In this document: in pieces, positions 1 to 17,240 of the stretch
Layout of the letters: each line of letters begins with the position of its first letter
Numbering within the stretch: position 1 is the first letter of the stretch
DNA from: Spirogloea muscicola
Lineage: Eukaryota > Streptophyta > Zygnematophyceae > Spirogloeales > Spirogloeaceae
Assembly: GCA_009602725.1 (NCBI GenBank)
Contig: WELB01000041.1
Coordinates: 86,266-114,001 of the forward strand
Direction of reading: 5' to 3'
Length of the DNA stretch: 27,736 bases
Notes under the pieces: model-generated
What the model was told of the DNA's origin: nothing
Seen by the model: the letters and a program-made list of their open reading frames with translations, nothing else
Database searches by the model: none
Made by a program: the position numbers and the translations under genes

Positions 1-215
1 TCCAGGACCCTAGCCTCTCTGATTTGCGGCTGCTTAGCAGGGGTTACTGAGTAATTTGTAGCTGCTTTCTTTCTTTGTGTGCTTTGGTTTCTTAGCGCTT
101 CCTCTGGCTTCCTCTGGCCCCCTTCTCGTTCTTTGTTCATTCTTTTTTGGGCTGGCTTGTCCAGCCCCTATCCTCAATGGGCGAGCCCTTTCTTTCTTGA
201 TGGCTGTGGATGGCC
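1..215 (+). mobile_element. 3' end of a non-LTR retrotransposon (copy 1, subfamily B)
   Basis: The window opens inside the last codons of a retrotransposon ORF. Bases 3-50 read QDPSLSDLRLLSRGY and a TGA, the same tail as the copy ending at 4729. A T-rich 3'UTR follows, with a perfect hairpin at 149-167 (GGGCTGG, 5-nt loop, CCAGCCC) and the conserved trailer CCTATCCTCAATGGGCGAGC. The tail and UTR match 4680-5035 closely. The copy is 5' truncated by the window edge or by its own insertion. Confidence 0.75.
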
Positions 216-362
216 AGCCCAAGGAGGATATTGACCCCCTTAGGTTTGTACCTATGGTGGTCCAAGCTTGGAATCTGGAACTTGGAACGTGGAACATGCT
301 TACGATTCAGCAGTAGACAATGTCTGAGATGTAAGCCATACGTCTTGTTGGTGGTAAAGAGA

Positions 363-426
363 AAGCTCTTCCAGTAGAGGGCGAAAGACTCTGACCTGGT
401 AGGTCAGAGTCTTTCTGGAAGAGCTT
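363..426. repeat. Long imperfect hairpin (26-bp stem)
   Basis: The arm 363-374 (AAGCTCTTCCAG) pairs with 415-426, and 384-397 (AAAGACTCTGACCT) pairs with 401-414. The loop is 3 nt, and the only irregularity is a 9-nt bulge (375-383) on the 5' side. All 26 pairs are Watson-Crick. It could be a small-RNA precursor, a fold-back element or a local inverted duplication. I see no coding role for it. Confidence 0.75.
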
Positions 427-647
427 GCTTGCAAGGTGCTCCAAGGACAACCGTAAAGCGCCATAACGACAGTACTTCGCAGCCCTTCTGCAGCACAGTT
501 TGTGCGACTCCGTCACTTCGTCGCTGACAAAAACACATCAGCGAGGTGAGTTGTTGTTGGGGCTAAATATCATCTCTTTTCCGTCAACAACTATGTTAGG
601 TTGTCTGAACAATCTTCCTCTCGGAAGTTTCCTTCTCTGAAGATCTC

Positions 648-1604
648 ATGCATGCACCAGTCTCCGAGTTGGCCGGTGGAGCACCAGAGAACACGTTGCC
701 TGGCTTGTTTGGTCTGGCTCTACATTTGCATCAATGTATTTGCACAGGTGTCGTACGAGTGGGGCATAACTCTCGGTGCAAAAATGAGCTCTGGCGCACT
801 CCCAAGGATGAGTCAGGACGAGCAGCCGCCATCACAAAGGCTGCATCGGTCAGGATACAGGACATTGGCCCTTCCTTTACCAGAGTCCTCTGGGTATCAA
901 GTGCAAGCCTTCCGTCCTGATTTGACGGGCACACTTGTGTCTTGGGCATGGTTGTTCCAATCGAGGATGAAGCTGTTGACAGAATCTGTTGTTAAATTCC
1001 TTGACACCTCAATGTTGATGATAGCAGTCTTCGGGAATGGGCAAACTTGAGCAGTCGGGAGCATCCTGTCCTGCCAAGAAAGCTCTGTACGACTACACTG
1101 GTGCAGATCTACGTAGGGGCGAAGTCTCACATCCTGGAAGTGCTCTATTCAACAGGCTGTGGCTGTATGGCCGACAATGTGGCCGCCTGCTTGATGTCTT
1201 GGGAGACCAGCAACAAAGCCCATCGCGCACTTCTAGGAGTACGCTGACCAGGCCTGTGACCTTTTGCAGGTCACTGTTCTTCCGGAATCCACCTGATGGC
1301 CGCCGAACATAGACAATATCTTGGTGGCCGGCCACATTGTCGCCCATCCGTGCACTGCCTCTTGAGATTTCCTCTCCTCAGCTTCACTGAGCCGCCCATC
1401 CTACTTCGAGGTCCCTGCCCTTGTGTCAGAGCATTCTCTGCCCATATTACCTGTAAGCACTATCAAGCACTTGAAAATTGCTGTTGCAGAGTAGTAGCTG
1501 CTCTGATTCCTCTTGCTCTATCAGCTGACGCCCATCAAAGTGGTCATTCTTTGGCTTGTCAGCATCTGAAATTGATGCCTTCTAGTAAGCATGCAAGCAC
1601 TTGA
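648..1604 (+). pseudogene. Possible decayed or unspliced coding stretch, unidentified
   Basis: One plus-strand frame runs from 648 to 1604 with about five stops, fewer than expected by chance for over 300 codons. Open pieces are 648-920 (containing ELWRTPKDESGR), 1047-1247 (containing GCGCMADNVAACLMSW) and 1296-1604. Some stops might sit in introns, but I could not find a phase-consistent set of splice sites. No domain is recognisable. It may be a decayed element, exons of an unknown gene, or chance. Confidence 0.2.
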
Positions 1605-2557
1605 TGGCATCAGGCCTGTTGCGAAGGGGTTGTTGGGTTTATTAAGTCCTGGCTGGATCTGCTCCAAACAGAGTAGTCACGCCTGGGGTGTTCCCTATTG
1701 ATGTATTTATTAAGAAATGTCTGAGAGGTAGCTTGACGCTCGTCCGACCAATGCTGCAACACCACGAATCTCAAATTACAAAGCTCACTCGTATGACATT
1801 CCTCATGTACATATCTATTGCACTAAGTTGTTGTTGTAGAAGCATCACACATCTGAGGACCACAATACCCAGCAGAGAAGGCCGGCTTGACTTCCGTGCT
1901 GTATGAATGTGTGTAAGCAATGTGTAAGCAAGTGGCCCCTTCAAGCAAACGAGCTCTGCACATAATTCATGGTGGAACTTCAGAATTTGCATGACTGCTT
2001 TGCCAGCCCGTTAAGATTTGAGGCTCATATAGCTTACTGCATACCTCCTTGCAGAACTGATGGTACTCTATATGCTTGACCCACAGTGACGTGCTACTCG
2101 TTTTGCATGCACTTCTAAGTTTGAATGACGTACAGTACCCACTTCATTCTTCTCTCACGCCAGATATGGAAGGATGTGAGAACACCATGCTTGCTGGATA
2201 CAAGCAAATCGAAGCCTTTCAGAAATTTGATTAAGACAGGACCTCGAGCTTGCCGGCAAGGCCACAGATCACGTGCATTTGAGGAGAAGCCTTTTCTCCA
2301 CAAGGGCTGACATGTGTCATCAACAGCCTTGCTCTATTGGTGGCACTTGACTATGGCAAGCTTGTGTTGTAGCTCAAGTTGGATCAACTTTGTAAAGGAC
2401 GGCAACTTGGTGCACGCCACCATGTCGGCAAGTGAAATCTGCACATATGGTGACAGTTACTCAGTTACAGTATCGACAAGTGACATTAACTTGCGGCAAA
2501 ACGATGCCTCAACAACATATATTGCATTCAAGTCTTCCGACTCTTAAGATAAACAAA
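1605..2557. other. Intergenic, no supported gene
   Basis: Only short ORFs under 80 codons occur on either strand, with no recognisable motif, splice-consistent chain or RNA fold. The region ends at the stop codon of the minus-strand secreted-protein gene, so part of it should be that gene's 3' flank. Confidence 0.5.
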
Positions 2558-3688
2558 TCAGGCTACAAGACTCTGCTGCAATAAGTACATCACGTAGCTT
2601 GCATGCAGTGCACTGAACAAGCCATTCTCCTCAGGACTCACATTTGCTGTTTGAACAGCAGGTGGAGCTCCAGTCTTCTTGTTTGCAGCAAGTTTTGCAC
2701 AGCATTGTGAGGCGTTTGGCAGAAGGCAATACTTGAGGATGAAAGCAACAGCAGGTTGCAGCTGTGGCGCAATATACAAAGGGGCAGATGTGGCCAGCAA
2801 AGTTCGTCAGCACTCCAGCAGTCGTGTCTGCCTAGCAAGTACTGGGCAGTCTCTATGAGGATTCAGCAATTACCCAGCATGATAACCTCGCAAGTACGTG
2901 AAAATAGACTGCACCTGCTTTTCAGTGAAAGGACATTTGCCGGGAGGCCCAGGAGGAATTTTGTCTGTGCAGGCAGCGATGCACGCAGATTGTGAGCTAA
3001 TGATATGCCGGTATCCACAATCCAAAAACGCCCTGTTGACTGTGGGTCATTCACAGTGGCTGACAAGCAAGAAGATGGAAAAAGGAAAGGCAAATGAGTC
3101 TCTGGACACTTAGACAGATTGCCTGATTACATTGTGGGGGTGGGGCTCTCTTCTTTGCAATTGGAGGCGAGATTGATTTCTTTGCAATTGGAGGCGAGGT
3201 TCTCTTCTTTGCAATTGGAGGCGACTTGTGGTGGCCACCCTTCTTCTTCGTGACTGGCGCAGCAAGCATGCGCCTCGATGACAGCACCGCTTGGGACAGA
3301 TGCTGGAGGGCTCCAGCATCTCTGAGCTTCAGTCCGGTCTGTATCACTGCAATGAGCACAGTTTAAGTCCAAACGCTTAGGAGTAATAATGGCCATAACT
3401 ACTGACCGTCTCACATTCAGGGCCTCCCAATGGCTGCCTCATAATGAAGGACGGACAGGCAAGCTAGCAACTTTCCAGGTGACAGCACAAAGAGCTTTGT
3501 CACATACAGGCCTCAGTACACTGCCTCGCACAGAATTTCAGAGTAAGGAATGCAAAGGCATGGCAAAGCAAGTCAAGGCGGTCAGCATGATTAGAGAATG
3601 GGGACGTACGTCTAAGGGCGGCTTCCTGCGCCGAGCAGCCGGACACAGCACAGGCCAAGCCGGCGAGGAAGAGCATGAGGTGCCTCAT
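2558..3688 (-). CDS. Predicted secreted Lys/Pro-linker cysteine protein, family member 1
   Basis: I do not recognise the family. Four exons join in phase: 3688-3610, 3346-3131, 3039-2915 and 2761-2558. Exon 1 encodes a classic signal peptide (hydrophobic MLFLAGLACAV, small residues before QEAA). Exon 2 gives a basic linker with three 9-residue repeats built on SPPIAKK. Exon 3 adds three cysteines (DCGY, SACIAAC) and ends GKCPFTEKQ. Exon 4 begins LQPAVAFILKYC and carries NASQCC. The core is C-P-x16-C-x7-C-C. Intron phases are 1, 1 and 0, shared with the paralogues at 6170 and 9917. A final 66-nt in-frame segment (GTGAGT..TTGCAG, from 2641) may be a retained intron: both forms end at the same TGA, giving about 207 or 185 residues. 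The start at 3688 is chosen because it begins the signal peptide; the frame stays open upstream. It probably acts outside the cell or in the wall; role unknown. Confidence 0.68.
3151..3231 (-). repeat. 27-bp tandem repeat, three units, in coding sequence
   Basis: Units begin at 3151, 3178 and 3205 and share TTCTTTGCAATTGGAGGCGA. On the minus strand they encode three 9-residue blocks centred on SPPIAKK, inside the linker of the secreted protein. The 27-bp period preserves frame, so unit number can change without breaking the gene. Confidence 0.9.
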
Positions 3689-4391
3689 TCTGTTGCTATG
3701 GGCAGCCCTGCACACAAGCATGACAGGTGGTCCGAAATGCGACACAGTTAGAGCCGAGGTGTCTTTGCTTCGACCCCCACGGCGCACGAAGTGTTTGCGT
3801 TCCACGACAACTCCTGGCTGAGGCTGGAGGCATCCGACGAGGACACGAGCCTCGCAGCCCCGTTCGACCGAGGCAACAAGCGTCATCCCGAGCAAGGACT
3901 TCACGGCAGCAGGCAGCATTCGTGAGGCGAAACTCAGAGGCGCGTTGAGAAGGTCCAAGCGCAAGTCACCCGTGCGCACGGGCTGAAGCGAGGTGACGAG
4001 GCAGCTCTGAGTGCGAGGCAGAGCCTGGGAGCTCGGGGCCAATGCGTCCGAAGCACAGAGCAACGCCAGCGAGCGCCTTGTGAGCAGCGGACGGGAAGCC
4101 CTGAAGGCAGAGACTCGGCGACGAGCGCGGGGAGGGAGGGCCAGGCGAGCTGCGCACCTGGCGCGGCGAGGGGGGAGGCGCCGCCGCGGCGGTGGGACTT
4201 GATGGGGAGCGAGCGCTGCGGAACATGGGAAATTGGGCCGAGCCCTCGTCGTTGCGCCGTCGCCCGGTACTTCGCCGGACGGCTTCCTGGCTCGGATTGG
4301 CCTCCCCTTCCGTCAAAAAAAGCGGGCCCCGTGCAGCCTGCCCCTTCCGATAGGCCCTTGCAGAGACCGTCTGCTCCCTCCGGAACGATGT
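3689..4391 (-). promoter_or_regulatory. GC-rich 5' island upstream of the minus-strand secreted-protein gene
   Basis: GC content rises sharply, most strongly at about 3950-4300, directly upstream of the predicted start at 3688. Long overlapping ORFs on both strands (for example 3934-4413 minus and 3966-4550 minus) have biased, low-complexity composition and no motif, as expected of GC-rich noncoding DNA. CGG/CCG runs occur near 4180-4195. By analogy with the islands near GST, Argonaute and MED31 it is probably promoter and 5'UTR. Confidence 0.45.
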
Positions 4392-4444
4392 ATTGGCTTG
4401 AATTGGCCTCCATTTCATTTCATGCGCCCCGCGCGCCTTCTCTC
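4392..4444 (+). repeat. Dispersed ~50-bp repeat, copy a
   Basis: The segment reads ATTGGCTTGAATTGGCCTCC, then CATTTCATTTCATGCGCCCC, then GCGCGCCTTCTCTC. Close copies lie at 8961-9020 (minus), 15328-15379 (minus) and 15685-15748 (plus). Flanks differ, so it behaves as a mobile or duplicated short element. Confidence 0.7.
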
Positions 4445-4549
4445 CGGATAGCGCACGCAGACCTGAAGGCGGCTCCCCGCACCGTCGGCCACTTCTGAAG
4501 GCCCAGTCTCCAAGCGAGCTGCTCCGTCTCGCCCCGTTACCTCGAAGCA

Positions 4550-5035
4550 TGCCGCGGCGGCCTCTCTGTGTATCGTATGCGCCTGGCCGTCTCGCTGCAG
4601 CGGTCTATGGCTCGCGCGCTGCACCTTCGTGCCGGCAGAGCCCTCGCTGCTGCCTCTGGCTCTGGCCAGGGGACCCACTTCCAGGAGCCTAGCATCTCTG
4701 ATCTGCGGCTGCTTAGCAGGGGTTACTGAGTAATTCGTAGCTGCTTTATTTCTTTGTGTGCTTGTTTTCCTTAGCTAGGAGATTTAGTCACTTGGAAAGA
4801 TTCTTTTTGTTACTTCTCTCGTGTAGGGGCCCTGGGTGTGTGCGTGCTTGTTTCTCTTAGCGCTTCCCCTGGCCCCCCTTCTCGTACTCTGTTCATCCTT
4901 TTTAGGGCTGGCTTTTCCAGCCCCTATCCTCAACGGGCGAGGCTTTCTTCCCCTCTCTGTTCATTCTTTTTCGGGCTGGTTGTTCCAGCCCCTATTCTCA
5001 ATGGGCGAGCACTTTCTTCCCCTGGGCGCCTGGCC
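4550..5035 (+). mobile_element. 3' end of a non-LTR retrotransposon (copy 2, subfamily B)
   Basis: An open frame into the TGA at 4727-4729 encodes the conserved C-terminal tail (YRMRLAVSLQRSM.. RALHLRAGRALAA.. SDLRLLSRGY). It matches 18510-18667 and the tail at 3-50. The 3'UTR contains two hairpins, 4905-4923 and 4973-4991, because the hairpin unit is duplicated in tandem. The copy is severely 5' truncated at about 4550. Confidence 0.8.
4888..5022 (+). repeat. Tandem duplication of the retrotransposon 3'UTR hairpin unit
   Basis: Two units of about 67 bp (4888-4953 and 4956-5022) share TCTGTTCAT, a T-run, GGGCTGG..CCAGCCCC, CTCAA.GGGCGAG and CTTTCTTCCCC. Differences lie mostly outside the stems, so both can form the hairpin. 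Confidence 0.85.
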
Positions 5036-5537
5036 CGCGGGGAGCCGGGCCCGGAGAGGGGCGGTGGTGGCCGGCCCCCTGGCCAGCCGGACTGACCCGG
5101 ACGTCGGGGGCCCGGCGTCCGGAGCTCGCGGGCCGGTCATCGGGCTGTCCGCCCGTCGCACCAGCCTGCCGACGGCGCCGTCGTCGGCCGGATCGGCCAA
5201 GTGCCGGGCGAAACTCCGGTCAAAAGGGGCCGGCGGTCGCGACCAGCTGGGCGGCGGCCGGGAGGACGCGTCCGGGCCCCCCGACGACATCCCCCGACGA
5301 CCGACGCTGCCCGACGCGGATGCGGGCGTTCATGTCGACGGAACTGGCCGCAGTACGGACGCCCGTCAGTCTGCCACGTGGCGGCCCCAATCTGGCCCTC
5401 CCAAGTGGCCGAGCCCGCGCCCAGGCGCTTCTCACAGAGCCCTCTGGGCGGTGCTCCTGGCTCTCCGTCAGGGACCCGGGCCAGCCACCCCTGCACCTGC
5501 AATACCACAAACCTGCGGATCGCCCGCCGCCGCCGCC

Positions 5538-5568
<31 letters not shown>

Positions 5569-5660
5569 CGACAGCGTGCCTCAGGGAGTCCAGGGACGGC
5601 TGCCGCCTCACGGCGTGGGTGCGGAGTCGGCCCCTCCGAGCGGGCCGCACAGCCAGGCCT
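5036..5660 (+). promoter_or_regulatory. Strongly GC-rich island with a (CCG)n tract
   Basis: This is among the most GC-rich stretches in the window. A near-perfect CCG/CGC tract at 5521-5573 would give polyproline, polyalanine or polyglycine depending on frame. Several long ORFs overlap on both strands, none with a recognisable domain. It lies upstream of the plus-strand secreted-protein gene at 6170 and could be its promoter or a 5' noncoding exon. A short unrecognised exon within it cannot be excluded. Confidence 0.4.
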
Positions 5661-6169
5661 CCGGGACGCCTCAGTGATCAGCGGCCGTCTCGGAAGCCCA
5701 GACTCGTGGAACATACACAGTGGAAGACGCCCAGTCGTTGTGAAGGTTCTTGATGTGCTCCATCAGTTGGTGGTGACCTCCTGCCGGGCTCCTTTGGAGG
5801 CGCTTCGACTCGAGCCGCAAGGGGTGTGTGCATCCTAGCGCCCGAGGTGCAATGTTCGCTTCTCTTGTCAAGATTGGTGCCTCGCTGCTTTCTATGGTTG
5901 GACAGCGCCTTGCTGACAGGATTTTCTTCCACTCTGCTCGAGGCTCTTTCCATACCTGGTACGAAGAAGCCTTTGACATCAAGGAAAGGTCAGGTTATGT
6001 TGAGGGGCTGCACTGAAAACCCATGAACGCTACGTCAGAGGACAGCAAATGCGAGTAGCTATGTAAGACGTCAATTGGTGCCGTAGAATGCCTCATCAGA
6101 TCGTCAACTTTGACATGCTGTAAAGCTTCTCTGCTGCACTGCAGATCCAGTCGACCATTCAAGGTTGTG
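5661..6169. other. Short competing ORFs, unassigned
   Basis: The plus frame 5828-6016 (contains GQRLADRIFFHSARG) and the minus frame 5671-5982 (contains GGHHQLMEHIKNLHNDW) both look less random than their surroundings, but they overlap and neither can be tied to a family. They may be 5' flank of the gene at 6170 or a decayed element. I make no gene call. Confidence 0.25.
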
Positions 6170-7397
6170 ATGAGGATAAGAGGTCTACGGACAATAGTGA
6201 TACTACTGCTCTCCTCCTTTTCGACCTTCGCATCAGCGTATCCTGGTATGTCAGCAAGTAGCCTGGGCTGCGCATTTACTAGTTATTATAGTTGCCATGC
6301 TCAAGAGTTGGGCCACTCTGGAGCTTCCTTTTAGCAACGCAGAACCGGTTTGTTGGAGCGGGCAGACGAGTCAGGGTATGGGGTGCATCAGAAAGTCCCA
6401 ACTGTTATTGTCATGGATATGGGGGTGCATGTCTGTGACGTGCCTCAAGAGAGGACGCTCCACTACGGAGATAGCAAGCCTTGAAGTGCTGACAAGGACA
6501 AGCAGAAGCCGTACTAGAGGAAAAGGTCCAGTCGATGCACATCAATGCTCTATCTGATGCTTAATATGGTCACTTAGTGTCGCACAACAGATGGAGTTCT
6601 GCAATCAACCCAAAGGATAAAGACGGGAGCGAAGCATCATGCAACCTTTCCACCCCCACCATCCAAGCACAAATCCACGACAAGGAAAGTACCAGCCCCT
6701 CACGCAAGCCAGGGGGCCAGTTCTTCCAAGAAGAGCCCTCCACCAAGCACAAATCGAGTTGCACCGGCAGGTCTATTCTTTACTTGTCATGGCCCTCATC
6801 AACTCAAGGTGTTCGGGAGAATTGAAGAGAGGTTGTAGTCGTTGCAGCATTTAAATCAGACTTTCACATTGTGGTGACCAAGCTTGATAGAATATGACCA
6901 GGATCACAGGAAGAGGTCACCTGACAGCAGCTACATGGCAGGCAAGGATCTGCATATAGTAGCACCAATGTCGTTAAGTCTGCTGGGAGTGTCTGTGTGC
7001 TGACTTGACTTCTCCTTCACTTGCTGACTCAGGAAGAAAGTACGGACACTGTCCAATGAATGAAAGCCAGGTATACATGTGTTTGTCAATCCAAGACACC
7101 CAAAAGTAGGACGACATGCAATATCAGAGAGCTTTGTGCAGCGCCTGAGGAGAACCATCAATGCTTTGGGTGCAGGCCAAGGTTATTGTCGACAAGCTGC
7201 TACAAGTCTGCGTGAAGCGAAGCACAAAGTCTCTCTGTTGCAAGTGGCAAGCCCTTGTAACCAAAGCCTTTCCAGCTTCACAGAACGTGAGCATTTCGTA
7301 CACAAACCTGCCCTTGAAGGCCATGATCGGTCCTGCTTCTCTTTCCTGCACGTTTGCAGTTCTGAATCTTGACTCTATATTGTCTACTAGAGCCTAG
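6170..7397 (+). CDS. Predicted secreted Ser/Pro/Lys-linker cysteine protein, family member 2
   Basis: This is a paralogue of the gene at 2558-3688. Phase-consistent exons are 6170-6245, 6591-6770, 7033-7070 and 7176-7286, plus a short terminal part. Exon 1 is a signal peptide (MRIRGLR, then IVILLLSSFSTFASA). Exon 2 is a linker rich in Ser, Pro, Lys and His (KHHATFPPPPSKHKS; SSSKKSPPPSTNR). Exon 3 ends YGHCPMNESQ. Exon 4 carries DKLLQVC and SLCC, giving C-P-x16-C-x8-C-C. Intron phases 1, 1 and 0 match member 1. Exon 4 ends at AAC/GTGAGC, mirroring AAT/GTGAGT in member 1. The protein ends either by read-through to the TAG at 7395-7397 (about 171 residues) or by splicing to CAG/TTC-TGA at 7360-7365 (136 residues). 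Exon 3 could instead begin at 6979, but 7033 has the better pyrimidine tract. Function unknown, probably extracellular. Confidence 0.62.
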
Positions 7398-8293
7398 TAC
7401 CACACCAGTAAATTGCTATACAAATCTTACATACTGCACATTCTCATGTTGTGTGCCAGCTCGATGCGAAAGATGCGGCAGCATGTTTACAACTTCCATC
7501 CTTTCAGACATTGTACCAGCTTGAGTTGAAAGGCACAGTGACTATCACAGATTGCAACTGAGACCTTTCCACATCATTTGCTTCAAGCCTTTGCAAACAG
7601 AACTGCGTCCAGTAGGCAGCAATGTTGCTCTGCCGGACAGAATCAGCTGCCTGCTAGGTATGTTAGTCAATAATTTCACATGGCAGCTTGCATGTCATGG
7701 TGATTTTGCTCCTCGAAGATCCTCAACAAATGTCAGAGGGGAGGTTGTGAGCAATGCGACTCACATGAGCACTCAGCTCAACGACCACATCCGGTCGCAG
7801 ATCTGATGCAAATGTCTCGAGTGCCATGTGATATCAATGACATCTAGGAGTTGCCAGGAGTTGACAAGAGATGAGAGCGGCTCTTGTAGGTCGTGGTAGC
7901 TATGTAACCTGATGACATGCTGTTGGAAAGAGATTGGAGGTTCAAGCAGAGGCAATTGTACGCCGTAAGTCAGCAGCGCTGGCAATTTAGGAGACAGTGA
8001 TCTCGTGTCACCTGGACTGTTGACAAGGTAGCAAAGGTGCACCCTTAGCTGCCCAATCTCGTTAGCTGCCCAATGCGCGTACACCACATAGGCAGGAAGC
8101 AAAAGTGGGCATCTCATGCATTGGGTGAATAAATGCTGCCGGGCGCAAACAGGAGCCACAGGAACGGGCTGGCGAAGTATGCACGTGTTCCTCTGCTCGG
8201 AGGCACGCAGCAGGGCTACTGATAAGCGTGTACCTGGTGATGGACGGCCAAGTACATCTACAAATGTAAGCCGCTTGCTGCATGTCGACCTGC
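7398..8293. other. Intergenic, with one unassigned minus-strand ORF
   Basis: The longest ORF is minus 7773-8159 (128 codons, containing PPISFQQHVIRLHSYHDLQ). It has no recognisable motif and no linked exons. A 17-bp-period duplication of TTAGCTGCCCAAT occurs at 8045-8074. Nothing else can be supported. Confidence 0.35.
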
Positions 8294-8575
8294 TCAGGAG
8301 CCGCTGGTCAGCGTGTTAAGGTCGCTACTCGATGCCCAAATACTGGCTGGCAGATAGTAAGCCCCACCGCCACCATGCAGAGCTTGTCCAGCTCTGTAAT
8401 GCAGACCATGAGAGCTTGAGCTGACACGCGGCTGCGCAAGAATGACACAAACTCTGCCGGCAAGCCAGTCTCGACTAGAAGCACATCTACACAACGTGCA
8501 TCGAAGAGCTCGCCCATAAAGAAGAGGGGCTGGCAAAGCCAGCTCAAAAAGAATGGAGCTATGTCCAAAGCCAAA
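8294..8575 (-). mobile_element. Retrotransposon 3' end (copy 3), frameshifted
   Basis: On the minus strand a UTR hairpin (8527-8545) is followed by a C-terminal coding relic. The relic begins ETGLPAEFVSFLRSRVSA, homologous to the intact copy's EMGLPAAYLSLLRRRVSA near 16960-17010. It then shifts frame and ends ASSSDLNTLTSGS plus stop at 8294. The hairpin of one copy therefore sits immediately before the coding tail of another. Confidence 0.7.
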
Positions 8576-8654
8576 GAAAGAAGTGCCGAAAAAGGACTAC
8601 ACTACAAGGCGCGAGATGGTGCAGAGGGAGACAGAGGCTTCTCTGTACACACCT

Positions 8655-8946
8655 GTTGTCCATTCTTTTTGGGCTGGCCTTTTCCCAGCCCCCATTTGCT
8701 GCTGCATAACTGTCGTTCTTGCGACGTGCTCAGGCTAATGCCTTGCACCAGAAAGCTGGGCGAGCTCTAGTTGGTGGCAGAAGGGCTTCGTATCTGCCAT
8801 CTAGTATTCAGGCATCGATTAGCGACCTTTATGTACTGACCCGTGGTTACTGAGCGGGTCAATGCTGTAGGGTCTGAGGTCTTCAGATGTGCTTGCCTTT
8901 GTACTTGGCCATTTGGCCTAAATCGTTTGTTTCAAATACACGAAAT
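8655..8946 (+). mobile_element. Retrotransposon 3' end (copy 4, subfamily A)
   Basis: The hairpin at 8671-8691 (GGGCTGG..CCAGCCC) is directly followed by an open frame from 8710 to the TGA at 8851-8853. That frame encodes RRAQANALHQKAGRALVGG and ends SDLYVLTRGY, nearly identical to the intact copy at 16980-17145 except for a short deletion. The subfamily A trailer follows (GTGCTTGCCTTTGTACTTGG.. AAATACACGA). Confidence 0.8.
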
Positions 8947-8960
8947 TCGCACCAAACAAG

Positions 8961-9020
8961 AGAAAGACGCGCGGGCGCTTGAAACTAATGGAGGCCAATT
9001 CAAGCCAATTACATTGTTCA
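8961..9020 (-). repeat. Dispersed ~50-bp repeat, copy b
   Basis: The reverse complement reads ACAATGTAATTGGCTTGAAT, then TGGCCTCC, then a variable bit, GCGCCCGCGCGTCTTTCTCT. It aligns with the copies at 4392 and 15685, including the leading ACAATGTA. Confidence 0.65.
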
Positions 9021-9054
9021 GGCAGAATCTAATGCAGAATAAGCAAAGCTACAT

Positions 9055-9105
9055 CAAACGGGGGCAAGCAAGGGCTGTAAACGGGAGAGCCCACGGGAAG
9101 GATGT
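9055..9105 (-). mobile_element. Degenerate retrotransposon 3'UTR fragment
   Basis: The minus strand shows GGGCTCTCCCGTTTACAGCC followed by CTTGCTTGCCCCCGTTT. This resembles the hairpin plus trailer (GGGCTGGCTTTTCACAGCCC, TTGCCCCC) of the copies at 17418 and 18765. No coding tail is attached. Confidence 0.45.
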
Positions 9106-9199
9106 CGTGGACTCTCCACGTCAACAATGAGTGCCGGTGGTGTTGCAGAATTAGCCGTCAGTTCCAACGGGACTTTGAGATAAGGCAAGGTGGCAGGAA

Positions 9200-9620
9200 A
9201 TCGCCTTGGCGTTGCTGCCAGTAAGCGTCGGTCAATGCCCGCCCCGAGGCGGCGGGGGGCCAGGATCCACGCAATTGTTTCCCGTCGCCGTCGCACGCGC
9301 CCAGCCGCCCTCCGTCTGCTTGTGGCGGTCCTGGCCCCATGAGTACATCCACCAAGGGTCTCGCAAACCGTGGTTTAACTGCCGTTCCGCCTGTGGCCGC
9401 GCGCACATCGGGCAGCCGCCTGGCCGATTCGCCGCCGCCGCCGCCCGCCGCTGTGGCCCGCGACCCGCTCCGGCTGCGACCGCCTCGCCGAGCCGCGGTG
9501 AGGGCACCTCGGCCCGCTGGGGCGCGCACTGCTCGAAGCCTCGGCACCTAAGCGTCCTCGTCGCCGTCCACGGCAGCCGTGCGACTTCAGTCGGGCTCCG
9601 CCTGCTTTGACAGCTCTTCT
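9200..9620 (+). promoter_or_regulatory. GC-rich 5' island upstream of secreted-protein gene 3
   Basis: A GC-rich block with CCG repeats (about 9433-9455) lies roughly 300 bp upstream of the start at 9917. Overlapping ORFs on both strands lack recognisable domains. Its position and composition match the other islands at gene 5' ends, so promoter or 5'UTR is the likeliest reading. Confidence 0.4.
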
Positions 9621-9916
9621 CGCCTCCGGCCAGTCTAATCGGTTCTCTGCTCCAGCAGGCCAGTGTTCGTTCTTCGCTGCGTTAGCCCTCGGTGCTATGT
9701 CCAAGCTAGGAGGGAAGTCTGTTGTCAGTTATGATGATAGCTACAGAGTATTTGTGGTACTGATATTTGACTTGCCAAAAACCGCCTTCTTACTGCATCC
9801 ATATTGCAAATCGTATAAGTGCTACTTGAGTGCTTCAGACATTGTTACTCACACGCCAGCCAGCATGACTATGGCGAGTTGGTGCTTCTGGTCTTCCAGC
9901 TTCCCGAAACCTCTGG

Positions 9917-10976
9917 ATGGCATCTCGGGGAGCAGTTGCTGCGGTCTTGTGCCTGCTGGCCCTGTTTGCTCTTGCCTGTAAGTCCAGTGTGGCTTACCAA
10001 TTCCTCGATGTTCTAAAGACTTGAAGGTTATGCTCTTAGTAAGGTCAACCACAGCATTTGTGACAAATGTAAGCCGGTGCAGTGAAATGAGTACAAGCCA
10101 TTGCAAAGTAGGATGCACAAGAGTTGTAGGTTCACTTGGGCCGTAGATACTGTCACAGCGTCATGTGACAGTCAAGTAATCGCTGACTTGTGCTGGCACT
10201 GCCTCTGCTGCCAGATGATGCTAGGATCTTGACAGTCATTGCCTTTGTCATGCAGCTCTTGAAGCAGAGGCTGCAGGACACCATCCTGCTGGTGTAGGCC
10301 ATCATCCTGTCAAACCAGGTCATCACCCCCCTGGTTCTGGTCATCGGAAGTGTCCCGTGACGGCCACTCAAGTATGTCAACTCACAGAACCTTGGTAGTG
10401 ACCTCAGAGTGCTATTCAGGGTGCTTAATGTCCCATCAAGCTGTCCTTCCGAGAAGGATTTTGCTTCTTTGAAAAAGATATGGCATAGTAGCCAACAGGT
10501 CTCAGGTTGTCTGCTTTCTCACTCTAGGCCCCCCGTGTCTGAATATATGTGAATGACTTCTCTCTTGCTTCTGTACTGCCATAGCAGATTCAGCTACTTA
10601 TCAACCAGGTTCTGAGCCTGTGTGTTGATCCGACCCTCAATGCAAAGTGCTGCACATATATCAAAGCACAAGCGAAGGAGTATCAAGCAGTAAGTTTGGA
10701 CAGGCTGACATTAAAATACAGATGTGCCTAGCTCGTTTTGGCATGAAGCATGGCATGTACACTGCGACACCAGGCTGCTGTACATCGTGCAAGCAATTGA
10801 TTTTCCTTCTAAGTTTGAACCAGAAACAAAGGGCCTGCATTAACACAATATTGTCTCTTGGCTTGCAGTTCCTGACATCAGCAAGTTATGCGCCCTGCTT
10901 TCAATATCCAAATGTGATTGCGGCCTTACCAAAGCTTCTACCCTTGGAGGGCAGACTGAATGCATGTCTTAAATGA
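9917..10976 (+). CDS. Predicted secreted His/Pro-rich cysteine protein, family member 3
   Basis: This is the cleanest member of the unnamed family. Exons 9917-9977, 10256-10371, 10588-10689 and 10869-10976 join in phase (1, 0, 0) to encode 128 residues. Exon 1 is a signal peptide (MASRGAVAAVLCLLALFALA) followed by a GTAAGT donor. Exon 2 has three GHHP units within about 20 residues and ends GHRKCPVTATQ. Exon 3 reads IQLLINQVLSLC then NAKCC, giving C-P-x16-C-x8-C-C, and ends at a GTAAGT donor. Exon 4 (ATSA-like start FLTSASY) adds two more cysteines and ends with TGA. Compared with members 1 and 2, the intron between the linker and the CP exon is absent, so the two are fused. The linker is His-rich rather than Lys-rich, so metal or polyanion binding is possible, but this is a guess. 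Probably extracellular. Confidence 0.7.
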
Positions 10977-11039
10977 AGTTGATGACTTAGCTGACTTGAT
11001 GGAGAGAAGATTTAGAGCTTATCTCATTGTTGCATCTTC

Positions 11040-11270
11040 ATGGACTGTCACTTAGAGTGGCTGTTGCGAAGGGTGGGCAACAGCCAGCAAAAGTTGGACA
11101 AAGTCAATAGTACATCATATCTCCTCAAAGATTTTGGCAAGCAGGAAGATGTCATTGCTGCTTTGAGTACTAATGTGCTACTTTGTCCTTCCACTATGCT
11201 CGTCTGGATTGAGATGCTGGGCAAGCAGTGCATCCCTACATGCTGGTGGCTGTATACTGACACCAATTAA
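11040..11270 (+). CDS. Hypothetical short ORF
   Basis: An ATG-started 76-codon ORF of normal-looking composition (contains VGNSQQKLDKVNSTSYLLKD and ends with TAA). It has no known motif, signal peptide or membrane segment. It begins 64 bp after the stop of the secreted-protein gene and could be part of that gene's 3'UTR. Coding status is doubtful. Confidence 0.18.
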   Translation: MDCHLEWLLRRVGNSQQKLDKVNSTSYLLKDFGKQEDVIAALSTNVLLCPSTMLVWIEMLGKQCIPTCWWLYTDTN

Positions 11271-12160
11271 GAGCTGCTCTCTTTGTAAATTGGACCTCCT
11301 GGCGCTGCCTCTTCCTACTCAATTGGGTAATTGGTGAATCAGCGAAGTGGCTGGGGAGCCATCTGACTTAGCGCAGTAGGTTGTCGAAGCGCTCCCTGTG
11401 TAATGGGGTGGCACGGCTTGTTGGGCTCATCTTAGGCAACCGTGCTTGCTCTCGCGCTCAGTTATGGCTATTCCCACTATTGCTGCAAGTAGAACCCGTG
11501 CTAGTCTCATCTGTGTCTGCCGCTTTGATTGGTTCTGCGTCTGTAGAGCTAAGACGGGAGCAGTCTGCTTGTCTCATGGACAGTGGCGAAAGCCGAGCTA
11601 AGGACTCGGTATGGAAATTGCAAGATGCCGCTTTTGGTCGAGAGTTGCAACACCAAGTGTGCCCGCCCTTGTGAATTCAAAATTCGGACGCCGTTGGACA
11701 GTGCACTAATGACTCATTTTGGCTGGCGGTTTATGGAAAATGCTTCCAGCCTTCTCAGCACGTTGTCATCATAGAGCGATGAGCATCTGATACGTGCCTG
11801 TCGGTTACTTGGCGCCTTAATATTCACGATAGGCCGTCTTCAGTGCACTTCAGCCACCATTGCTTTTGGAACATTGCAAAGAGCTTTGATGCCTTGTGGC
11901 AAACCCTGGGTTCAGCCCAAGGCTGCAGGAGTTCGCTTTAAATTGAGGCACTGAGGATGCTCTTGGACCAAGATGGCATAGTCCAGTTGACCTCTCCAGA
12001 GAAGTAGGTCTTTGTAAGGTGGAGTGTGTGTGGTGGCGGTGTGCATATGGTGGCTGCAACTGCAACTTTGAGAAAAGGAGTGTGGTGCGCATGTTCCAAA
12101 AAGGGAGGCCAGCTTAGCTAGTGCATTGTTCAGGCAAACACTACTGGGGGCCACACATAG
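11271..12160. other. Intergenic, one cysteine-containing ORF of unknown status
   Basis: The plus frame 11583-11774 contains ESCNTKCARPCEFKIRTP and a possible acceptor just upstream (GGACAG at about 11583). It could be a terminal exon of an unseen gene, but no upstream exon fits. Minus ORFs at 11850-12196 have no recognisable content. Confidence 0.25.
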
Positions 12161-12212
12161 CAAAGCCTGCTGAAGGGGGTAGGGCAAGTGAGCCAAAGCC
12201 TGCTGAAGGGGG
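12161..12212 (+). repeat. Short direct repeat, 33-bp period
   Basis: CAAAGCCTGCTGAAGGGGG occurs at 12161-12179 and again at 12194-12212. It is a simple local duplication with no coding context. Confidence 0.8.
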
Positions 12213-12380
12213 GACTTTGATTTTCACGAGTAAGGCTTGCAGATCCGACAGGCCAACTTGAGCTTGAGTAGCAGAGGAGCAAGTGCTGCAGCAAAGGAGC
12301 GGGCGTAAATGGCAGCTGTATGAATAGGATATGAGATTGTTCGTACGTGAGTCAGGAGTCTCGTTCTGAAAGGTGAACTC

Positions 12381-12440
12381 ATAAACCCCTAAACTCCTAG
12401 ACCCGTACTCCCGAAAATCTAACCCGAAATCCTAGATTTT
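12381..12440 (+). repeat. Degenerate telomere-like C-rich/A-rich stretch
   Basis: ATAAACCCCTAAACTCCTAG is followed by ACCCG, CTCCCGAAAATCTAACCCG and AAATCCTAGA. It loosely resembles a decayed (CCCTAAA)n array, but no two perfect units are adjacent. Chance is possible. Confidence 0.2.
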
Positions 12441-12539
12441 AAAGCCTAACAGGCTCTGGCCCGTCACTCCGGCTGGGGATCGGGTTGAGGCAGACGGAAA
12501 GGCAACAATGCGGCTGCTGATATTAAAAGAGCGGCTGTG

Positions 12540-12985
12540 AAAGCCAGCCAGATGCATACAGGTGCTCTTAACAGAGCCACAGGCTACGCAGACAGGGCAA
12601 AAAGGCGGCAAGTGAACTGGGATCCGCAGCTCAGGCGGCCTGCGTCAAAGCCGTCAGCAGGCCGGCCCAGTGACATCAGTCGGCAAGCCGGAGCAAGCTT
12701 CCGGGGGGTCCTGCGGGCCGAGAGGCCTTCTGGGTGGCTTCGGAAGAGCCGCTTCTTCTGGATGGCTCGCTTGGGGCGGCCCCATTGGGGAATTAACGGG
12801 CGCCCGCTTGCTCAGCGCTGGCTTACTGCCCGGGTCGCCGTAGAAGCCATAAAGCAAGCGTTAGCTCCCTCTTTTAAATATCAGCAGCCGCTTGATATCC
12901 CACTATCCGCTCCCCAGCGAGTAGTAGGCTCACTGCGGCCGCTCCGTGGCGCCACTAGCGGCTGCTCGCTCGCAAGCGGCTGCGC
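12540..12985 (+). promoter_or_regulatory. 5' flank of the GST gene
   Basis: The stretch is moderately to strongly GC-rich and grades into the first exon at 12986. The plus ORF 12537-13001 has no recognisable domain and is probably noncoding promoter or 5'UTR. No clear TATA box stands out. Confidence 0.35.
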
Positions 12986-14708
12986 ATGGCCGGCTCCCTG
13001 ACGCAGTCCCTACTGGCCACCTCGCTCCTCTGCGCGCTCGGCGCCCGCGCGCCGCTGCCCGCCCTCGCCAGCATTGCCACTGCCGCCCGCAAGGCATCTC
13101 GCCTGCCGTGTGCCAACGCCTCCGCAGCAGCATTACTTCGTTCTGCTTCTACCTCTGCCGTCAGGTCTGAATCCAAGGCGTGCACCTGGCCTAGAGCGCA
13201 GCCTGGCCTCTGCAGGCCAGCAGCTCTCCGCCAAGCTTCCGCCATGGCCACCTCGGATGACAAGATCCAGTTATGGTCCATGGCCACACCCAATGGGCAA
13301 AAGGTACAAGCTCCACTAACTGGCAACGGCATACCTCTTATCATAGATCACTGCACTACCCATCATGTCGTAGGATGCGTGTGAACTGGAGCTAGACTGC
13401 CCCCCCTGTGACTGGCCACAAGCCAGTCCCCCTGCTGTGCTCACAAGTCATTAGCTCTGAAAGTGGCATGCTCTTGCAGATCGGTATTGCCTTGGAGGAG
13501 CTTGAGCTACCTTACGAGGCCCACCTAGTTGACATCAGGAAAGGGGACCAGTTCAAACCTGAATTTGTTGCCATCAATCCCAACTCAAAGATACCTGCTA
13601 TCGTAGTGCCCGACGGGCCTGGTAATCACGCCACTACTGAGCAATAGCAGCCCGCAATGATAGTCATGTCTAAGCTTGACAAAGAGTTCTGTTTGACAAT
13701 GTCAGACCATCAGCCTGTTAATTCTCCTCTGATTATCCTGGAGCAGTCTGACAGAAGAATCCCGCCTTTGACAAATGACAGGAGGCCAGCCTTTGAATAT
13801 ATTTGAGAGTGGTGCCATCCTCATGTATTTGGCTGAGAAGACTGGAAAGCTTTTGCCGAAAGACGAGACACGAAGATGGGAGGCCATCCAGTGGTTGTTC
13901 TTTCAGGTAGCTTCTATAACTTCTCCTGCGCAGCCAAGCAACACAAGAATGCAAGATGTGAAGAAGACTGATATTTTCATAAGAGACCAGGAGCACCTAG
14001 CAGTACGGTCTGTAAGATTGAGAATGAGGCTATGAGCACAGGAAGTGCAAAGTTGAGGCTTTGAGCATTGTTCACCATACGGGGCTGCTGAAACCTATGA
14101 TGCGTCAGTGATGTTGATCTCTTTTCGGCTCCCGTACTCAAATTGCTATCCAGGTTGGGGGGCTTGGGCCTATGATGGGTCAACTTGGCCACTTCAATTC
14201 GCTTCCTAAAGAAAAGCTTGACAGCCCGTATCCTAAGGAGCGCTATTTGACGGAGGTCAAAAGGTGAGCCACCCCAGTTACCACTGGTTGCATACTTTGT
14301 AATCTATTTGGTCAGCTCCTTTTGGGATGGCTAGATGTCGTATTGTTATCTCTACTCCCTGGATTATATCTTCTTCCAAGGAGCATAAAAACACGTTGCC
14401 CAACCTATCTTAGGGAGGTCTTGTGATGCTGGATGATGCAAATCTTTAACATTCGGCCTGACTATGCGTGTCCGTGGTCCTTGTGCAGACTCCTCACTGT
14501 AGTGGAGAAGCACCTGGAAGGTCAAGAATACTTGGCAGGCGACTATTCCATTGCAGACATCTCTACAGCACCTTGGGTGAATGGCCTTAATCTCTACCTG
14601 AAAGGCACCATTGAGATTAGTGATTTCCCCAACATTGCTGCCTGGCTTGAGAGGATCTATGCCAGACCTGCTGTGCAGAAAGGCATTCTGGTCAACAAAC
14701 CTGCGTAA
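12986..14708 (+). CDS. Glutathione S-transferase, Nu/YfcG-Ure2-like, with targeting extension
   Basis: Five exons (12986-13303, 13480-13621, 13782-13906, 14154-14263, 14489-14708) join in phase to give 304 residues. The thioredoxin-like domain starts near residue 93 with IQLWSMATPNGQK; the T-P-N motif (T101, N103) is the glutathione-contacting motif of Nu-class and Ure2-like enzymes. Then come GDQFKPEFVAINPNSKIPAI with the cis-proline (P145) and the FESGAI glutathione contact (E162-S163). The helical domain follows, with WLFFQ, GGLGPMMGQLGHF and GDYSIADISTAPW. Residues 1-86 are rich in Ala, Ser, Leu and Arg without acidic residues, like a plastid or mitochondrial transit peptide. An internal ATG at 13244 (residue 87, MATSDDK) would give a normal-length cytosolic form. 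The family acts in glutathione-dependent disulfide or peroxide reduction and conjugation. All splice sites are GT..AG. Confidence 0.95.
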
Positions 14709-15084
14709 AAGTTGCCGGGTCTTTCACTAGCGGAGTTGCTGCCGGACCTCATACGCTGCTACTTCATGATGCTCAATTCAGCCCTCATTTACTGCTTGTA
14801 CATGATGCGCGCAAAAGCTCCATCCAGACCTTTTATACTGAAAAACCTCGGCTTGACCATCACTTCTTTAAACTCGACTTTTTTTCCATGCCAGCTTAGG
14901 CAGGACACATGTCATTCTCTCTTCAGGTCTCAAAACGCAGGGCACATCTTGCATTGTGCAATGTTATTGCAAGTACTCCTACCCCAAGGATATGCTTGCC
15001 ATGCTGCGAGGAAAATTGCCGAGAAGTGAATCTTAGACATCTGTATTCTCCACTTAGTACTCTCAATTATACAGCTTCACTAAG
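14709..15084. other. 3' flank of GST, no supported gene
   Basis: ORFs here are short and unremarkable. The segment should contain the GST 3'UTR and ends at a minus-strand retrotransposon 3'UTR fragment. Confidence 0.45.
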
Positions 15085-15870: not shown

Positions 15871-17145
15871 ATGGAATATGATGACTCCCTTCAGCAGTCC
15901 CTGGCAGCCCTACTACATTCTTCATCTTTCCCCTCAGCTTCAGCTTCCCTCCAGGCCTCCCTCCCTACTCGCATGGGCGGCCTTGGCTGCCGGTCGTTGG
16001 AGCAGACGGCGCAAGCAGCCTTCCTGGGCTGCTGGCACCAGATCGCCTCCCTGCTCCCCATGCGCTTCCCTTGCCTCCACGACCCTGTACGCAATGTGGA
16101 GGAAGGCTCCTTCCCCTTCCAAGCGGATCTGAGGAGCATCCGCGACTCAGCCATCAGCTCTTTCCCCTCTCTCCAACCCCTACTCACGCCATTCTCCACC
16201 CTCGCCCAAGCTTCTGATAGAGGGGCACAATCCAGACTGGTTACGGCAGTGGAAGACGAACGCCGCAGAAGGTTGAGGAGGCTGCCAGAGATTCAGAACA
16301 ATCCGAGGAGCTTGGCAAGACTCACTTCTCTGGCCACACCTGGTGCCACTGACTGGATCACCTCTCCCCCCGTCGCCAACGCCTTCAGCATCAGCTCCGA
16401 GGCCTTTCGGACATCGCTTCAACTCTTCCTCGGCCTCCCACCTAATTGCCTGATTGGGGTGCGCCAGTGCGAGTGCGGCTTCCGTGCAGAGGGTGCTGTG
16501 CTCGCCACTCACATGCTGAGATGCCCCACTGGACCAGAAGTGGTGGGCATTCACAACCTCCTTCGCGATGCCCTGGCGGGCTTGATGCGCGACGCCGGCT
16601 ACCGTGCGGTCGTGGAAGTCAACAATATCATGCCTATCACCACGGACGCCCAGGGACGTCATCATCGCCGCACACTTGACATTGTGGGCGTGCAACCTGG
16701 TGGAGGACCACGGGCCCTGGTCGACGTTGTTGTTACGGAGGCATATAAAGGCCCAGCATCAACACACATTGCTGGGCACGCAGTGGGCGGAGCAGAGCAA
16801 AGAAAACTGCGGCATTACTCCGATTACCCCCAATGCGATCAACTCCTGCCAGCTGCAATCGACATCTTTGGCTGTCTGGGTCCTCGCTTCCACACTCTGC
16901 TTCAAAACATTGCCAATCTAGGCTACACTCGACGCGCAGATGTGTTTCCGGCTGAGATGGGCTTGCCAGCTGCATATCTGTCGCTCTTGCGACGTCGAGT
17001 TTCGGCCTGTTTGCAGCGTGCTCAGGCTAGTGCCTTGCACCAGAAAGCTGGGCGAGCTCTAGTAGGTGGCAGAAGGGCTCCGTTCCTGGCATCTAGTATT
17101 CATGCATCGAGTAGTGACCTTTATGTTTTGACCCGTGGTTATTGA
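15871..17145 (+). CDS. C-terminal part of a retrotransposon polyprotein: zinc-knuckle-like motif and restriction-like endonuclease
   Basis: The ORF has 424 codons. The first ~60 residues include LPTRMGGLGCRSLEQTA, a motif common just after reverse transcriptase thumb regions of non-LTR elements. Near residue 200 a Cys/His cluster (CECGF..THMLRC) fits the zinc knuckle that precedes the endonuclease in R2-like elements. From about residue 265 come TLDIVGV, then ALVDVVVTEAYKG and RKLRHYSDY. I read these as the D, D and K positions of a PD-(D/E)XK fold. AIDIFGCLG and a basic helical tail (RRRVSACLQRAQASALHQK, RALVGG) ending SDLYVLTRGY follow. The tail is repeated in at least seven fragments in this window. 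Without a reverse transcriptase core this copy cannot move on its own. The endonuclease assignment rests on motif spacing only. Confidence 0.7.
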   Translation: MEYDDSLQQSLAALLHSSSFPSASASLQASLPTRMGGLGCRSLEQTAQAAFLGCWHQIASLLPMRFPCLHDPVRNVEEGSFPFQADLRSIRDSAISSFPSLQPLLTPFSTLAQASDRGAQSRLVTAVEDERRRRLRRLPEIQNNPRSLARLTSLATPGATDWITSPPVANAFSISSEAFRTSLQLFLGLPPNCLIGVRQCECGFRAEGAVLATHMLRCPTGPEVVGIHNLLRDALAGLMRDAGYRAVVEVNNIMPITTDAQGRHHRRTLDIVGVQPGGGPRALVDVVVTEAYKGPASTHIAGHAVGGAEQRKLRHYSDYPQCDQLLPAAIDIFGCLGPRFHTLLQNIANLGYTRRADVFPAEMGLPAAYLSLLRRRVSACLQRAQASALHQKAGRALVGGRRAPFLASSIHASSSDLYVLTRGY

Positions 17146-17240
17146 GCGGGTCAATCTGCTGTAGGTTATGTAGATTTTTAGATGTGCTTGCCTTTGTACC
17201 TGGCCATTTGGCCTACATTTCTTTCTAATACACGATCTCT
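15871..17240 (+). mobile_element. Longest non-LTR retrotransposon fragment (copy 5, subfamily A)
   Basis: This 5' truncated element holds an undamaged 424-codon C-terminal ORF (15871-17145) and a 3'UTR ending near TAATACACGA at 17228-17237. The reverse transcriptase core is missing: the frame is closed by a TGA just upstream at 15856-15858. The 3'UTR (GTGCTTGCCTTTGTACCTGG.. CATTTGGCCTAC) matches that of the copy ending near 8946. No target-site duplication is obvious. Confidence 0.8.

Follow-up and report, generated by a model that had tools for sequence, protein, structure and literature searches.

The window analyzed here, a stretch of 27,736 nucleotides of the streptophyte alga Spirogloea muscicola (C41:86266-114001 of genome G000, 153 Mb in 471 contigs), contains three spliced genes, A, B, and C, that belong to a previously unnamed family of small proteins with a secreted-protein layout and six regularly spaced cysteines. 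A fourth paralog, D, was found by genome search, and the cores of B and D are under purifying selection. It is conceivable that the products are small secreted, wall-tethered proteins with a disulfide-locked, ligand-binding six-cysteine head, a reading that we hold tentatively and put somewhat short of an even chance. The family offers a firm cysteine code, an exon plan confirmed across copies, and four paralogs with three natural copies each.

A genome search with each protein as the query located the complete A-B-C segment twice more, on contigs C54 and C5, with the same gene order and orientation:

window 199-14795, against C54:492800-506500: segment copy
window 852-13881, against C5:893815-907500: segment copy

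Long aligned blocks between the segments are ~80-92% identical, in coding and noncoding DNA alike and with some gaps. The three diverged copies therefore provide a natural test of each gene model, and the exons are given here with their behavior across the copies:

3610..3688, minus strand: A exon 1, signal peptide, ends in phase 1; frame retained in three of three copies
3131..3346, minus strand: A exon 2, Lys/Pro-rich linker with SPPIAKK repeats, ends in phase 1; 216, 192, and 189 nucleotides (nt) in the copies
2915..2964, minus strand: A exon 3, ends C-P-x4-Q, phase 0; 50 nt in three of three copies
2642..2761, minus strand: A exon 4, cysteine 2 and CC, phase 0; 120 nt in three of three copies
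2334..2438, minus strand: A exon 5 (corrected), cysteines 5 and 6 and stop; open in three copies, resembles the last exons of B and D
6170..6245, plus strand: B exon 1, signal peptide, phase 1; 76 nt in three of three copies
6591..6770, plus strand: B exon 2, Pro/Ser/Lys-rich linker, phase 1; 180 nt in three of three copies
7033..7070, plus strand: B exon 3, ends C-P-x4-Q, phase 0; 38 nt in three of three copies
7176..7286, plus strand: B exon 4, cysteine 2 and CC, phase 0; 111 nt in three of three copies
7460..7561, plus strand: B exon 5 (corrected), cysteines 5 and 6 and stop; 102 nt, in frame, 96.1% identical in all pairings
9917..9977, plus strand: C exon 1, signal peptide, phase 1; 61 nt in three of three copies
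10256..10371, plus strand: C exon 2, GHHP linker and C-P-x4-Q in one exon, phase 0; 116 nt in three of three copies
10588..10689, plus strand: C exon 3, cysteine 2 and CC, phase 0; 102 nt in three of three copies
10869..10976, plus strand: C exon 4, cysteines 5 and 6 and stop; 108 nt in three of three copies

A preliminary description of this DNA had placed three spliced genes here, and the C54 and C5 copies share their splice sites and phases. Genes A, B, and C have an open frame in nine of nine copies (11 of 12 when D is counted), and both splice sites and frame are retained in all three copies for exons 1-4 of A and B and for all four exons of C; intron 1 of A starts with GTAC in the window and with GTGC in the other two copies. 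A and B have intron phases 1, 1, 0, 0, and C, in which the linker and C-P-x4-Q share an exon, has 1, 0, 0. As had been described, a signal-peptide-like exon 1 ending in phase 1 and followed by a compositionally biased linker (Pro, Lys, or His rich) is seen in all three genes, as is C-P-x4-Q at a phase-0 junction, with x17 up to the next cysteine and x7 (A) or x8 (B and C) from there to CC. The two-exon signature, which was derived from genes A-C themselves, occurs three times in the window and in none of 60 first-order Markov simulated windows (both strands). A scan of the window and 16 of the 32 retrieved loci gave 12 distinct sites, and these are the 12 genes (A-D in three copies each).

The comparison of copies also bears on the 3' ends. 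The end of gene C at 10976 was correct as first given; the ends at 2558 (A) and 7397 (B) were wrong, as they are not retained in the copies on C54 and C5, and whether an intron precedes them had not been stated. Reading straight on from exon 4 meets indels of 1, 4, and 9 nt between copies of A and of 1 and 3 nt between copies of B, with other stops in C54 and C5, and the old end of A, if set off from exon 4 by an intron as an exon of its own, works in C54 and opens with a stop in C5. Since frame and stop are thus lost in the other copies, we rejected the earlier ends and the intronless continuation of exon 4; it is possible that they correspond to rare retained-intron transcripts. The replacement last exons (A, 2438-2334, minus strand; B, 7460-7561, plus strand) have an AG acceptor, are open in all three copies, and encode C-x22-C and a stop, with the same x22 spacing as in C and D. 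They agree with the last exon of gene C in phase, length (102-108 nt), and cysteine spacing, and they match each other weakly in a genome search. The C54 copy of A exon 5 ends three residues past the last cysteine. The 96.1% identity of B exon 5 in each pairing compares with 83.6-92.5% for the preceding intron, and its changes fall mainly at third positions.

The corrected ends matter, as the earlier models of A and B missed the last core exon and two of the six cysteines; the C-P-x16-C-x7/8-C-C motif on which the family was first recognized is consequently real but incomplete. The full core is C-P-x16-C-x(7-9)-CC-x(21-27)-C-x22-C, with spacings of x17, x7, CC, x27, and x22 in A; x17, x8, CC, x23, and x22 in B; x17, x8, CC, x21, and x22 in C; and x17, x9, CC, x25, and x22 in D. 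All 12 predicted mature proteins have six cysteines, every one within the core, and a cysteine-free linker. Across nine aligned cores, the residue after cysteine 1 is Pro and that after cysteine 5 is Thr, Leu, or Phe. Knottins and other six-cysteine peptides with CC share the order C..C..CC..C..C, but knottin spacings are far shorter than the x17, x21-27, and x22 of this family.

Paralog D was reached through weak matches of the A and B last exons on C5 (693 kb), C54 (270 kb), and C359 (48 kb), at E values of 0.02-2. It is a complete gene, with phases 1, 1, 0, 0, a C-P-x4-Q exon end, and the exon plan of A and B. As the match was mainly to the last exon and the remaining exons, phases, and spacing then fitted, D can be regarded as an out-of-sample confirmation of the gene models. 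The copy on C359 (L031) carries an in-frame stop in exon 2, and its core is nevertheless still constrained, with ratios of nonsynonymous to synonymous differences (pN/pS) of 0.18 and 0.10 against the other D copies. With D as the query, A and B were recovered; a convincing fifth member was not found in this genome search, which gave one further weak match, on C451 (E 2.2), and could miss more distant members elsewhere in the genome. Among other candidates, the GHHP-linker matches on C33, C63, C75, and C113 were rejected as linker only, with different cysteine spacing or none, a match on C89 (E 0.023) as being without the cysteine signature, and matches of the gene C protein on C163 and C73 (E 2.5 and 4.8) for want of a fitting exon set. 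Further weak matches of the A-C proteins lie on C75 (at 266 kb), C38, C179, and C18.

Common descent of all four paralogs is supported by profile comparison. With profiles built on 7 of the 12 cores, leave-one-out comparison gave E values of 1.3e-13 (A), 3.9e-12 (B), 6.9e-5 (C), and 7.1e-16 (D), and none of 100 cysteine-fixed shuffles reached the real score for any paralog; for A, C, and D the real test drew on two rows and the shuffles on one. The outlier is C, for which much of the case is carried by the intron plan and cysteine spacing. The earlier proposal of a real tandem family is thus supported by open frames in three copies, a fourth paralog, and profile E values of 7e-5 to 7e-16. Its accompanying statement that identity outside the cysteines is very low is true of C (23-24% to A), moderately so of B (34%), and not of D (43-50% to A). 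Fast evolution, likewise, is an apt term for how far the paralogs lie apart, and perhaps for gene A, but not for B and D, in which core pN/pS between copies indicates purifying selection (B, 0.06-0.28, with p 0.002 in two of three comparisons; D, 0.10-0.26, with p at or below 0.023 in all three). The corresponding values for C (0.31-0.62) and A (0.71-2.4) include none that is significant, and the A core looks relaxed or fast. Between copies, exons are 94.9-95.7% identical in B and 94.6-97.7% in C, compared with 86.4-92.1% and 85.1-91.4% for their introns.

When placed into a cellular context, a wall-tethered, ligand-binding function could be pictured as follows. Removal of the signal peptide would expose a cysteine-free basic or His-rich tail, expected to be disordered, which would keep the protein attached to the acidic cell wall or extracellular matrix. 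Three disulfides (C..C..CC..C..C) would lock the compact head of ~76-88 residues, in which an amphipathic helix probably lies between cysteine 1 and cysteine 2 and a strand-like C-terminal stretch leads to cysteine 6. By analogy with hybrid proline-rich proteins (HyPRPs) and lipid-transfer proteins (LTPs), the head would most likely bind a small ligand in the wall, probably a lipid-like one. Judged by eye, a hydrophobic N-terminal stretch followed by a small-residue site is present in all four paralogs. The tail is Pro/Lys rich in A, B, and D and His/Gly/Pro rich in C; linker isoelectric points (pI) are 10.5-11.8 in A, B, and D and 8.4 in C, linker Pro content is 15-21%, and the mature proteins have pI values of 8.8-10.3. 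The tail may be independent of the head, because the SPPIAKK linker of A differs between copies by 27 and 3 nt, both multiples of three, and the GHHP tail of C is reused beside another cysteine module. The GHHP linker recurs at C33:487744-487905 (minus strand; L019) and C63:640647-640802 (plus strand; L020), followed there by C-x7-C-x5-CC-x3-C-x9-C, unlike the A-D core. The module on C33 had no Pfam match; we take this GHHP-linked module to be a knottin-like head.

Several observations weigh against a wall-tethered, ligand-binding head. Signal peptides and tethering were assigned by eye and from composition only, and the cleavage sites were placed by eye. Evidence for the helix is weak: 100-degree hydrophobic moments of 0.37-0.43 ahead of cysteine 2 speak for it, with no paralog individually significant (p 0.065-0.117), and the best angle is 100 degrees in two of the four paralogs but 180 in the other two. 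Residues leading up to the last cysteine show a strand-like alternation (170-degree moment, p 0.28, 0.05, 0.000, and 0.03 over 2000 shuffles, with segment limits chosen by the analyst), unlike an all-helical lipid-transfer fold. The head is clearly the more constrained part only in B; pN/pS of signal plus linker is 0.35-0.61 in A, 0.35-0.58 in B, 0-0.26 in C, and 0.07-0.25 in D, lower than that of the head in A and C and alike in D. The exons of A are barely more conserved between copies than its introns (93.2-94.6% versus 92.4-92.5%), and its exon 5 is less conserved than the preceding intron (89.3-91.3% versus 93.5-95.5%), so that the case for this exon is carried by its open frame and its homology to B, C, and D. 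Finally, there was no Pfam match at the cut-off for the three proteins and nine cores searched, and no PDB chain matched at E values up to 10.

The best sub-threshold Pfam matches were Retinal (E 0.0046) and PDGLE (0.021) for the three proteins and DUF2710 (0.11) in three of the nine cores, most matches above E 0.1 being dropped from the listing; LTP, HyPRP, prolamin-like, and antimicrobial families were not among the matches listed for either set. Many algal secreted proteins match no named family. As a calibration, the soybean hydrophobic protein, which has the true eight-cysteine motif, recovers a lipid-transfer protein from this PDB search at no better than E 0.35, and with a control so weak the silence of the PDB is compatible with a distant relation. 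A scan of viral contigs with the B core gave seven pattern matches, none confirmed, and no six-cysteine algal family of this kind was among the top-ranked matches in the open-licence PMC literature. The cysteine code is new, and the layout, a secreted cysteine head with a proline tail, is of a known kind.

Among the alternatives, one is that the family is a six-cysteine lineage of the eight-cysteine (prolamin/lipid-transfer) superfamily that kept cysteines 1-5 and 7 in bonds 1-5, 2-3, and 4-7 and lost bond 6-8 and the C-terminal tail, which we consider unlikely but worth serious weight. The preliminary description had set the family apart from the eight-cysteine motif, C-Xn-C-Xn-CC-Xn-CXC-Xn-C-Xn-C, and rightly so, as CXC and the eighth cysteine are absent and all 12 genes have six cysteines with a single one at the CXC position. 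The resemblance is closer than had been thought, however, since taking one CXC cysteine and the eighth cysteine away from the motif leaves the order C..C..CC..C..C. Such a paired loss fits type II disulfide pairing, given as 1-5, 6-8, 2-3, 4-7 in excerpts of PMC9832785; as cysteines 6 and 8 are partners there, the three remaining bonds would stay intact.

The closest described group, compared by description only, is formed by the nonspecific lipid-transfer proteins (nsLTPs) AI and AII of chlorophytes (PMC9832785, excerpts). A CC-containing cysteine order and, probably, secretion are common to both, several introns lie inside the cysteine region in both, and Chlamydomonas nsLTPs with a Pro-rich N-terminal extension and side-by-side genes recall the present layout. 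The AII group also has a long C1-C2 helix, and one purified chlorophyte protein bound C20-C24 fatty acids (PMC9832785, excerpts). In contrast, the chlorophyte proteins have eight cysteines and CXC (PMC9832785, excerpts), whereas this family has six cysteines, a short C2-CC loop (x7-9), and a strand-like last exon. HyPRPs are similar in having a Pro-rich N-terminal part and a C-terminal cysteine module with CC, but the present proteins have six cysteines in another spacing and so do not combine a Pro-rich part with eight cysteines. Excerpts of PMC2216038 describe 16 HyPRPs without one or two of the motif cysteines, which speaks for a six-cysteine lineage, and report bona fide HyPRPs to be absent from non-seed plants.

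Direct comparison was less informative. In hhalign alignments with six eight-cysteine proteins, column shuffles scored at least as high as the real core in 51 of 100 cases with the cysteines kept in place and in 40 of 100 full shuffles. A positive control that set soybean hydrophobic protein against type I lipid-transfer proteins failed as well, so that this comparison says little; a genome search with PF14368 and PF14547 gave no match, though its controls gave none either. As CXC and the eighth cysteine are missing, we do not place the family within the eight-cysteine/nsLTP group. It could be speculated that an algal six-cysteine branch of the superfamily, whether an ancestral three-disulfide state or a reduction, was already joined to a wall-binding tail, although this seems slightly less probable than membership in the superfamily as such. 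Should the head have a three-bond, lipid-transfer-like fold, it would bear on the origin of the eight-cysteine proteins of land plants; should it have a new alpha/beta fold, it would define a new family of wall modules.

Purely structural wall proteins, in which the head becomes cross-linked to other proteins or polysaccharide and binds no ligand, much as an adhesion or cross-linking domain carried on a proline-rich tail would, are likewise an unlikely but serious reading. The basic, repetitive, length-variable linkers (SPPIAKK in A and GHHP in C), the recurrence of the GHHP linker beside another cysteine module, and the constraint on signal plus linker in A and C, at least as strong as that on the head, would all suit such a role. 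The head of B, on the other hand, is the more constrained part of its protein, which suggests a specific partner.

We regard secreted antimicrobial or defense peptides as improbable. The proteins are small, basic (mature pI 8.8-10.3), and predicted to be disulfide rich, the paralogs are divergent, and the A core is possibly relaxed or diversifying (pN/pS up to 2.4, not significant). However, B and D are conserved between copies, the linker is long, and no antimicrobial family appears among the Pfam matches listed.

A role in cell-cell recognition or fertilization comparable to that of EC1 in flowering plants is very improbable. The EC1/ECA1 prolamin-like family is presumably Pfam PF05617, and no prolamin-like match was among those listed; we know of no basic linker in EC1 proteins. 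EC1/ECA1 proteins, which are small and secreted and have six conserved cysteines, perhaps in three disulfides (PMC8702097, excerpts), do resemble the predicted products of the present family, and expression in late zygotes is described for lipid-transfer proteins of Chlamydomonas (PMC9832785, excerpts). According to the same excerpts of PMC8702097, by contrast, the EC1 genes analyzed are intronless, EC1 is said to be restricted to flowering plants, and EC1 proteins have Trp after cysteines 1 and 5, which is absent from the nine aligned cores here. That the genes are not real, being a chance reading of repeats or pseudogenes, is improbable in the extreme, for although the C359 copy of D has its stop, A is weakly constrained, and the last exon of A varies more than the preceding intron, 11 of 12 copies keep an open frame, and D, found by a weak last-exon match, then fitted in all other exons, phases, and spacing.

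Other features of the window can be described briefly. A recurring element with a GGGCTGG...CCAGCCC hairpin lies at 118-190, 4874-4946, 4942-5014, and 8504-8550 and is possibly the 3' end of a retroelement. An open frame of 424 amino acids at 15871-17145 (plus strand) has no Pfam match; it may be a retroelement remnant, because the stretch 17036-17152 at its end has counterparts of 70-72% identity in the segments on C54 and C5. Two recognizable genes follow the family, with rough limits set by eye:

window ~13480-14709, plus strand: glutathione S-transferase gene (GST_N; one exon scanned)
window ~20433-25200, plus strand: Argonaute gene (ArgoN and Piwi; two exons scanned)

The Argonaute exon at 20433-20717 occurs three times at 95-100% (C41, C5, and C54), with a distant 41% match on C188. 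Together with the triplicated A-B-C segment, this suggests a triploid or three-subgenome assembly, in which each subgenome would amount to roughly 51 Mb if the triplication is genome-wide.

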